Assembly: GCA_029932385.1 (NCBI GenBank)
Contig: JAOZQE010000011.1
Coordinates: 1-32,159, forward strand
Length of the DNA stretch: 32,159 nucleotides
Origin: a bacterium
GTDB lineage: Bacteria; Desulfobacterota; Anaeroferrophillalia; Anaeroferrophillales; Tharpellaceae
Direction of reading: 5' to 3'
Position 1 is the stretch's first letter, and each line of letters opens with the position of its first letter. Made by a program: the position numbers and the translations under genes. Positions 10,512-32,159 of the stretch are shown piece after piece. The notes under the pieces are model-generated. The model was given only the letters and a program-made list of their open reading frames with translations. It was not told the origin of the DNA and searched no databases.

Positions 10512-10581
10512 CAACTTCTTAAGTTTTTCCATTTTCAGGATCGCTGACAACTGCAGCCCGGAATCACAGAGGTAAAACTAA

Positions 10582-10724
10582 AGGGTACCTTGAAAAATTG
10601 CCTTTTTCCCCAATTGCTGCGTTGAACTCAAATTTTAATCCTCAAAATACTCAATGTATTCCTGCGGTTAAAATCTTCGTTCGCCTTGCACTAGAATAAA
10701 AATTCTAATTTTTCAAGACACCCT
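10582..10724. repeat. Family-A interspersed palindromic element, copy A2 (complete)
   Basis: Terminal inverted repeats AGGGTACCTTGAAAAATTG (10582-10600) / TAATTTTTCAAGACACCCT (10706-10724), inner arms 10632-10640 / 10666-10674, central AATAC-tcaat-GTATT (10646-10660). Confidence 0.9.
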
Positions 10725-11613
10725 AAAGATCTTCGCCCTCTTCGAGCTCCAGTTTCTCTTCCAAGCGGGTGATTTCAGCCTTGATTACCTTTTCCGCCAG
10801 CGGTGGAATGACCTCCCGGGCAACCTGTTCAACAATGGTCGGAGCCAAGTCACCAATTGCCTTTATCATCTTATCCATACTGGCGTAAGTAGTCTGCAGA
10901 AGATGTTTACTCCACTCCTGGGTCATATCCTCAATCTGCTGGGAAAAATCGAGCCCATGGGGTTCAGTGAAAATGTGAGGGGTCGCAGAATCTGACACGG
11001 AATCGACCCGCAGAGGGGAAACCGGAGAACTCGGCTCAGGCCTGCCTTTGGCCTGCGGCTGCGGTTTAGTTTTGTGAGCCGCCGCCGAATCTTCGGTGGC
11101 AAGTTCATCATCGACAAGGTAATCATCCGGCAGTTCCGCCTCAGGTTCCGGGTCGCGGACACTCGCAAAAGAGAACTTCCCATCAGAACCCCCTCCGACA
11201 ACCACAGTTTCATCTAAAAGTTCATCAAATCCATCCAGGTCATCAAAATCATCGTCGAAAAGATCATCGGCATCTTCGTTTAAAAGAGAACTTTTCGCAT
11301 CATCTATTTCTCCGTTTTTACTTCCGGCAACCAGGGTTTCATTCTGAACCTTCAACCCGGCATTTTTCAACTCGGTCAGAATCGGATCACCATTAGCTAT
11401 CGAGTCTGCCATATCCAACTTGAAATAATCATCACCAGCAAATCCAGTGTCACCGGCTACCGGAGAGGATACCGTGGCAGCTTCAGCGCCAGCGGCAGGC
11501 TCAGTCAACAGACTCTTCCGAGCCCCAATTTCCGGCAGCTCATCAAGAGGCAAGCCCTCTTCAATAATGTCGGTCAGTTCAATAATCTTAACAGCGGCAT
11601 CGGTCTTTCCCAT
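10723..11613 (-). CDS. Acidic, low-complexity protein with predicted disordered N-terminus and amphipathic C-terminal helix; function unknown
   Basis: DADDLFDDDFDDLDGFDELLDE acidic tract, P/A/S-rich linker, C-terminal DLAPTIVEQVAREVIPPLAEKVIKAEITRLEEKLE; only long ORF, plausible RBS (gaggag). Confidence 0.75.
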   Translation of the reverse strand: MGKTDAAVKIIELTDIIEEGLPLDELPEIGARKSLLTEPAAGAEAATVSSPVAGDTGFAGDDYFKLDMADSIANGDPILTELKNAGLKVQNETLVAGSKNGEIDDAKSSLLNEDADDLFDDDFDDLDGFDELLDETVVVGGGSDGKFSFASVRDPEPEAELPDDYLVDDELATEDSAAAHKTKPQPQAKGRPEPSSPVSPLRVDSVSDSATPHIFTEPHGLDFSQQIEDMTQEWSKHLLQTTYASMDKMIKAIGDLAPTIVEQVAREVIPPLAEKVIKAEITRLEEKLELEEGEDL

Positions 11614-11645: not shown

Positions 11646-11670
11646 AAATTCTAATTTTTCAAGACACCCT
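11646..11670. repeat. Solo right end of family-A element (A3)
   Basis: AAATTCTAATTTTTCAAGACACCCT identical over 25 nt to the right end of A2. Confidence 0.8.
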
Positions 11671-11755
11671 TTATAAAAGATGAATCTGATTATCCGCGGT
11701 CTAATAGCGCAAAAACCGGAAAAAAACAAGTAGCTCAAGTTAAGATGAGCGGCAA

Positions 11756-31722: not shown

Positions 31723-31954
31723 CCTTGGTTTAATTCAAGATTTTCCGCGACCGACTCTGTAGATTTTGAAATATCCCGACCCTGACTATCTGTGTTCAAT
31801 TAATCCTGACTGAATCACATCTGTCAAAACAGGATCACAAAGAAGTGTTTTCACTTTTGCAACTTGACTTATCATCCAGATTAAAGGTATTGATTAAGCT
31901 AGTTCTGCCAATCTAAAGCATCTTCCAGACAACCACCATCCCACTGGTCAATCA

Positions 31955-32107
31955 TGATGGCGTCGTAAAAAGTCCGATCTACTGCGTTATTGCGGCTCTC
32001 CAGCCGCTCGACATACTATATGTATGGTCTCGCGTCTGGAGAGACCACAATATCTTGTATATCGAAATTTTTACTTAGCCATCCCGAGACTTTTTACGAG
32101 AGCATCA
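31955..32107. repeat. Family-B interspersed palindromic element
   Basis: Ends TGATGGCGTCGTAAAAAGTC / GACTTTTTACGAGAGCATCA, inner arms GGCTCTCCAG (31994-32003) / CTGGAGAGACC (32036-32046), centre CATAC-TATAT-GTATG (32012-32026). Confidence 0.88.
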
Positions 32108-32159
32108 ATCATGCGTCTATTATTCACTTTTTGCACAACCATTTTCAGACTTCTCTGGC

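Follow-up and report, generated by a model that had tools for sequence, protein, structure and literature searches.

Introduction

ERIC, known since 1990-91, is the basis of ERIC-PCR typing. It was described from Enterobacteriaceae and Vibrionaceae, with 7-bp terminal inverted repeats (TIRs) and TA termini (PMC10969869, PMC2229807). The literature that we searched named neither a transposase for ERIC nor relatives beyond these two families, and a search in which subscription journals were mostly uncovered returned no published link of ERIC to other phyla; priority for such a link is not established. Among the Geobacter palindromic sequences, one set is said to resemble sequences of many other genomes (PMC2700814, PMC2996986). 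Here we describe an ERIC-like element in a 32,159-nucleotide stretch of DNA (the window) that forms contig C200 of a fragmented genome, G000 (2.35 Mb, 206 contigs), whose genes appear deltaproteobacterial.

Results

An ERIC-like mini-transposon in the window

The family B element in the window is an ERIC-like mini-transposon of 151 bp at 31956-32106 on the forward strand, longer than earlier described. The repeat that the first-pass annotation had placed at 31955-32107 is real, and its limits were corrected by a perfect 6-bp target-site duplication, AATCAT, which reads the same on the left (31950-31955) and on the right (32107-32112).

The left TIR GATGGCGTCGTAAAAAGTC (31956-31974, +) pairs with the right TIR GACTTTTTACGAGAGCATC (32088-32106, +). 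Alignments A1 and A3 (below) show a conserved CTGCGTT motif at 31982-31988 (+), followed by a left inner arm at 31989-32003 (+) that differs among copies and is complementary to the right inner arm at 32036-32051 (+), both arms being supported by covariation. Alignments and covariation also place the core CTCGACATACTATATGTATGGTCTCGCG at 32007-32034 (+), which has a TAC-N5-GTA hairpin centre; the centre CATACTATATGTATG occupies 32012-32026. CTTG at 32054-32057 (+) is, by alignment within the own genome, the remnant of a conserved CGCCTTG, which is complete in L005-L007. The right side carries two end-like sequences in tandem, an inner one (32066-32083, +; reverse complement GATGGCTAAGTAAAAATT) found in nearly all B copies that retain the 3' part, and the outer right TIR (reverse complement GATGCTCTCGTAAAAAGTC). 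The outer right end is missing from several B copies of the own genome.

The inverted ends, CTGCGTT, centre and inner arms that had been named for B were all found in the sequence. The arms had been taken as sequences constant within the family, and this part did not hold, since they vary among copies while staying complementary. The right-hand motif CGCCTTG, common to A and B, had been overlooked. As a single strand the element folds well beyond shuffled sequence (z -4.9 as DNA and -6.6 as RNA, with 0 of 200 shuffles equal). No Rfam family matched the window at gathering score. The element has the general features of a MITE, being shorter than about 600 bp, multicopy, bounded by inverted ends and target duplications, and without a transposase gene.

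B copies in the genome and the genus

A second copy (L002, contig C195) is 100% identical over 31954-32108 and is flanked on both sides by AAAAAT. Identical copies with different 6-bp flanks (AATCAT and AAAAAT) indicate two recent insertions. Together with six more that align lengthwise, the own genome holds eight near-complete B copies.

B-type end sequences were present in all 13 of the 13 genus genomes; counts per genome ranged from 3 to 274, and the reversed control gave 0-4. The proposed abundance of TCGTAAAAAG-type repeats in related genomes was borne out. Searches with TGATGGYGTCGTAAAAA (up to 2 mismatches) gave 170 matches in the relative G011 and 274 in G001, and G011 contained 24 complete copies with ends as in the window element.

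Two further observations concern the copies themselves. Remnants of 29-36 bp, scarcely longer than two joined ends, occur for family A (L034, L040, L042) and for family B (L211, L220), as if the interior had been precisely excised. Another small repeat (GCACCCCAAGGGCACTTCC.. / ..GGAAGTGCCCTTGGGGTGC) lies within or next to B-type elements at L203, L209, L224, L227, L231, L233, L239, L402, L411, L414, and L415.

Families A and B have a common plan with covarying arms

The window also holds a 141-bp family A element (10583-10723, +) with the ends GGGTACCTTGAAAAATT and AATTTTTCAAGACACCC and, by flank comparison, the 4-bp target duplication TAAA (10579-10582 and 10724-10727). A second, decayed copy lies at 1812-1948 (+; 85% identity to the copy at 10583), and a right-end fragment was recognized by sequence match at 11646-11673 (+). 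The own genome gave 46 family A matches, about 10 of them complete or near-complete. The ends and arms of A are unrelated to those of B and the motif order is the same. Both families read CTGCGTTG, a variable complementary arm, CTC..TAC-N5-GTA..CTC, the other arm, and CGCCTTG, with three sequence-constant islands (CTGCGTTG, CTC-TAC-N5-GTA-CTC, and CGCCTTG).

We measured arm pairing in two alignments, A1 with 33 representatives from other lineages and A3 with 37 B copies. The B arms showed standard pairs in 95.4% of pair cells, compared with 88.6% in shuffles, and two-sided changes at 12 of 20 pairs (45 cells, compared with 10 in shuffles). Covariation in both alignments exceeded every shuffle and every slid register. 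The common fold of A1 pairs TGCG with TGCA, uses all four Watson-Crick types in the arms and is closed at the top by YGTAC-N5-GTACR. The pattern used to gather the A1 seeds specified CTGCGTTG, TAC-N5-GTA, NNCT, and CGCCTTGCA, so these letters are invariant by construction; no such constraint applied to the arms, to the neighboring TCA, or to the outer part. The likeness in CTGCGTT and core, which was expected to vanish with more copies if wrong, persisted with the 37 B copies, the A copies, and the 33 other-lineage families.

The module occurs in several phyla and in ERIC

The motif pattern was matched in 13 of 40 relatives and its reversed form in none. GTDB genomes contained at least 119 matching stretches, and the matches listed include Pseudomonas, Stutzerimonas, Chlorobium, Chlorobaculum, Bacteroidales, Alistipes, Marinilabilia, Methylovulum, Desulfuromusa, Pseudodesulfovibrio, and Clostridiales; the module is also present in Chlorobi, Bacteroidota, and Methylococcales. 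Among 2.9 million viral contigs there was no exact pattern match although chromosomal matches are frequent, which makes phages an unlikely vehicle.

We built a covariance model (R1) from 33 non-enteric representatives, with the sole A copy (L162) removed by hand and with no B and no ERIC sequence. Independent tests of R1 come from families A and B and from ERIC; the search pattern was inspired by A and B and not by ERIC. The model matched all A copies examined (E 3e-17 to 6e-9), with the window element at 10597-10710 (E 5e-15), and all eight B copies (E 7e-11 to 0.26; window copy 0.0017). In 83.6 kb there were no other matches up to E 10 besides two E. coli ERIC loci. All five ERIC loci examined (two E. 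coli and three Klebsiella) were matched, at E 8e-10 to 5e-6, and R1 matched nothing else there. Sampled Pseudomonas DNA (480 kb) gave 13 matches below 3e-5, followed by about 10 up to E 10, which is the chance level. The claim that A and B belong together as families of a larger kind, with a common core and geometry, is upheld by a model built without either of them.

The published RU-1/ERIC consensus has these islands too, in unchanged order (PMC2759123 Table 1a). Apart from this paper, a literature search by motif letters returned chance matches only. R1 copies in Bacteroidota are often paired or clustered at a spacing of about 120-200 bp (L304, L117, G053:C11, G053:C27). A reading of the repeats as attC-like was rejected, as GTTRRRY fits many A copies and neither B nor the G015-type copies.

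Target duplications differ among families

Left and right flanks were compared in each family against re-paired controls. Family A showed a 4-bp duplication (90% compared with 51% in shuffled pairs, n = 13), as did the Chlorobi copies (91% compared with 45%, n = 28). Family B in G011 showed a 6-bp duplication (68% compared with 46%, n = 24; some 7-8 bp). Most Pseudomonas and Desulfuromusa copies with the ends CAGGCTGTTGAAAAA had TA on both sides. Cut size is a property of the transposase, and the differing duplication lengths mean that the families differ in more than their end sequences.

Small elements with B-type ends in another relative, G012, had perfect 6-bp duplications in 8 of 11 cases (e.g., AACCTT, AAGATT, AACAGT, AAGAGT). 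Four elements (L397, L399, L400, L408) combined B-type ends and perfect 6-bp duplications with no R1 match inside, the R1 match at L408 belonging to a neighboring element, while L412 and L415 had B-type ends and the core. Because coreless elements also generate 6-bp duplications, such insertion does not need the core. The core looks dispensable for transposition, yet it is conserved.

An IS1182-like element carries matching ends

In G012 we found a DDE_Tnp_1 locus (L374/L416) between the ends TGATGCCCTCGTAAAAAG and TGATGGACTCGTAAAAA, which lie 1.9 kb apart; its right end was found again in L406 and L407. The right end of the window element, TGATGCTCTCGTAAAAAG, differs from the left end of this IS at 1 of 18 bases (counting from the flanking T), so that B has ends matching an autonomous IS of IS1182/ISDol1 type at 17 of 18 bases. 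The product matched IS1182-family transposases at E 2e-47, with weaker matches to ISNCY and IS5. It scored 162 bits against an IS1182 equivalog cut-off of 270, which leaves the exact transposase family uncertain.

Elements of the ISDol1 group make 6-7-bp duplications. The one complete IS1182-like copy, in G012, has no clean duplication; the B-type MITEs have 6 bp. The element was found in this relative and not in the window's own genome; a PF01609 search gave no such transposase gene in G000 (89.6% complete, 206 contigs) or in the B-rich G011, both fragmented assemblies.

No autonomous partner was found for the other ends. Chlorobi ends (GGGCACCTCTAAAAA) had none at IS-like spacing among the matches listed from 7 genomes, where inverted pairs lay about 115-330 bp apart; the A, Pseudomonas, and Bacteroidota ends had none in 2.0 Mb of loci, and no autonomous element with ERIC ends was present in the loci searched. 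Four long-spaced end pairs (L124, L137, L144, L251) were considered as autonomous elements and rejected because they enclose ordinary genes.

Discussion

A module probably carried by different transposases

The reading that we prefer, with a probability of about three in four, is that B is a MITE moved in trans by an IS1182/ISDol1-like DDE transposase, and that its ERIC-like module is carried by several transposases and owes its conservation to an intrinsic property. Such a transposase would recognize the B ends (GATGG..TCGTAAAAAG) and cut AANNNT sites, giving the 6-bp duplications. Between the ends, the module forms a long imperfect hairpin in which constant islands are joined by changing paired arms. 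The same module, with other ends and duplication lengths, occurs in family A, in repeats of several phyla, and in enterobacterial ERIC, and one old module may have come to be carried by different transposases as its ends were exchanged or diverged. That an IS1182-like transposase moves B is suggested by the matching ends; that the core is kept for its own property, and not for recognition by one transposase, is what we infer.

It is possible, but doubtful, that no end swap took place and that one ancient MITE lineage changed its ends in step with related DDE transposases (IS4/IS5/IS1182-like), with the core as the slowest part. An A-tract lies about 10-14 nt from the tip in all outer arms, total lengths vary little (about 124-155 nt), and the DDE families concerned are related to one another, all of which would fit co-divergence. 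However, the duplications jump among TA, 4 and 6 bp, and in G012 the same ends surround core or coreless interiors, which indicates that ends and interior recombine.

What the core is for

Two possible roles of the core were weighed. Its RNA could act on neighboring transcripts (stability, RNase sites), which we consider unlikely. Effects of ERIC RNA on neighboring transcripts were reported in Yersinia, and published work on ERIC RNA and on RNase E (PMC10969869, PMC2229807), the stable RNA fold of B (z -6.6), and the covariation in A1 and A3 all favor this role. However, core orientation relative to genes showed no overall bias (sense 23, antisense 28, convergent 21, divergent 18), which speaks against a simple transcript role, and G-U cells counted against A-C cells on both strands gave no consistent one-strand excess. 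After this two-strand count, a case based on the lack of G-U intermediates was given up.

Less likely again, the core could act at the replication fork as a hairpin of single-stranded DNA, in priming, slippage or strand choice. Pairing is kept while the arm sequence changes, and in two Pseudomonas genomes (G048 C8, C9, C13; G050 C1, C2, C7) the (+) strand, the one that reads CTGCGTTG, was on the G-rich replication strand in 51 of 69 copies, from contigs partly picked after the bias had been seen. The bias was not replicated elsewhere (45/78 at named loci, about 21/44 in sampled Marinilabilia contigs, and 10/16 in P. indica). We regard the replication-strand bias of the copies as a lead.

Machineries that fit the data less well

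The first-pass annotation had proposed one mobilizing machinery that recognizes structure plus core across the families. The common core and geometry would suit it, and it is nevertheless improbable, given duplications of 4 bp in A and 6 bp in B, an IS1182/ISDol1-like IS that has the B ends without the core, and coreless elements that duplicate alike.

Movement by a Y1 (HUH) transposase, as for REP/RAYT-type elements, is very improbable. Y1 genes are present in 9 of the 13 genus genomes, which would allow it. Against it stand the target duplications and the Y1 loci themselves: in the suggested check for co-occurrence, copy number did not correlate significantly with Y1 genes (rho 0.45, p = 0.13), and the core lay near 1 of 24 Y1 loci, about 1 kb off. 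The Y1 loci lack A- or B-type elements, and 3 of the 4 examined for repeats have other inverted repeats. Y1 genes of RAYT-like length also lie inside inverted repeats of their own (e.g., AAATAGGGGACAGACCACG), a family separate from A and B (L389:1777-2585, L390:1634-2383, L383:1375-2431).

Chance or convergence as the source of the A-B likeness, which the unrelated arms and ends of the two families might suggest, can be set aside given E-values down to 3e-17 from a model without A or B and a pattern that matched 13 of 40 relatives while its reversed control matched none.

Wider meaning and comparison with known systems

Beyond the preferred reading of a MITE moved in trans, a broader one, to which we give somewhat less than even odds, is that a pan-bacterial, protein-free core (CTGCGTTG / TAC-N5-GTA / CGCCTTG hairpin) is maintained across phyla by adopting the ends of available transposases. 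ERIC would then be its enterobacterial branch, and the core a counterpart of the tail-swapping CORE-SINEs. With ERIC placed in a multi-phylum superfamily of which one branch has IS-matching ends and a transposase gene, there is a first handle on how these repeats move, and interchangeable ends around a conserved interior make ERIC's purpose a testable question.

Several described repeats resemble B in part. The Geobacter multicopy palindromic sequences are likewise described as deltaproteobacterial intergenic palindromic families, a likeness of description and not of sequence. Correia/NEMIS and RUP are short MITEs with TA ends, Correia with reported RNA-level effects; the descriptions consulted make no mention of the core motifs, and they are set apart from B by description, not sequence. 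REP/REPIN are, like B, short, palindromic, intergenic, and present in many copies. Unlike REP/REPIN with RAYT (Y1), B has target-site duplications and long inverted ends, and shows no link to Y1 loci here, so that it lacks the association with a Y1 (RAYT) gene by which REP/REPIN are recognized.

The MITEs of IS1182/ISNCY (ISDol1-like) elements are closer, as B has 6-bp duplications and ends that match an IS1182-like element from the relative G012. In contrast to them, the interior of B is not IS-derived and carries an ERIC-like core; elements that combine these ends with a coreless interior exist too. ERIC (IRU, RU-1) differs from B in its TATACCC ends (7 bp), TA duplication, length of 127 bp, and enterobacterial hosts, B having GATGG..TCGTAAAAAG ends, a 6-bp duplication, 151 bp, and a host that looks deltaproteobacterial by gene content. 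The TATACCC ends and TA duplication of ERIC in the strict sense are thus absent from B, while the two have in common the core sequence, with its motifs in the same order (CTGCGTTG, CAGTCACTTAC-N-GTAAGCTCC, CGCCTTGC..), the hairpin layout, and the habit of an intergenic MITE.
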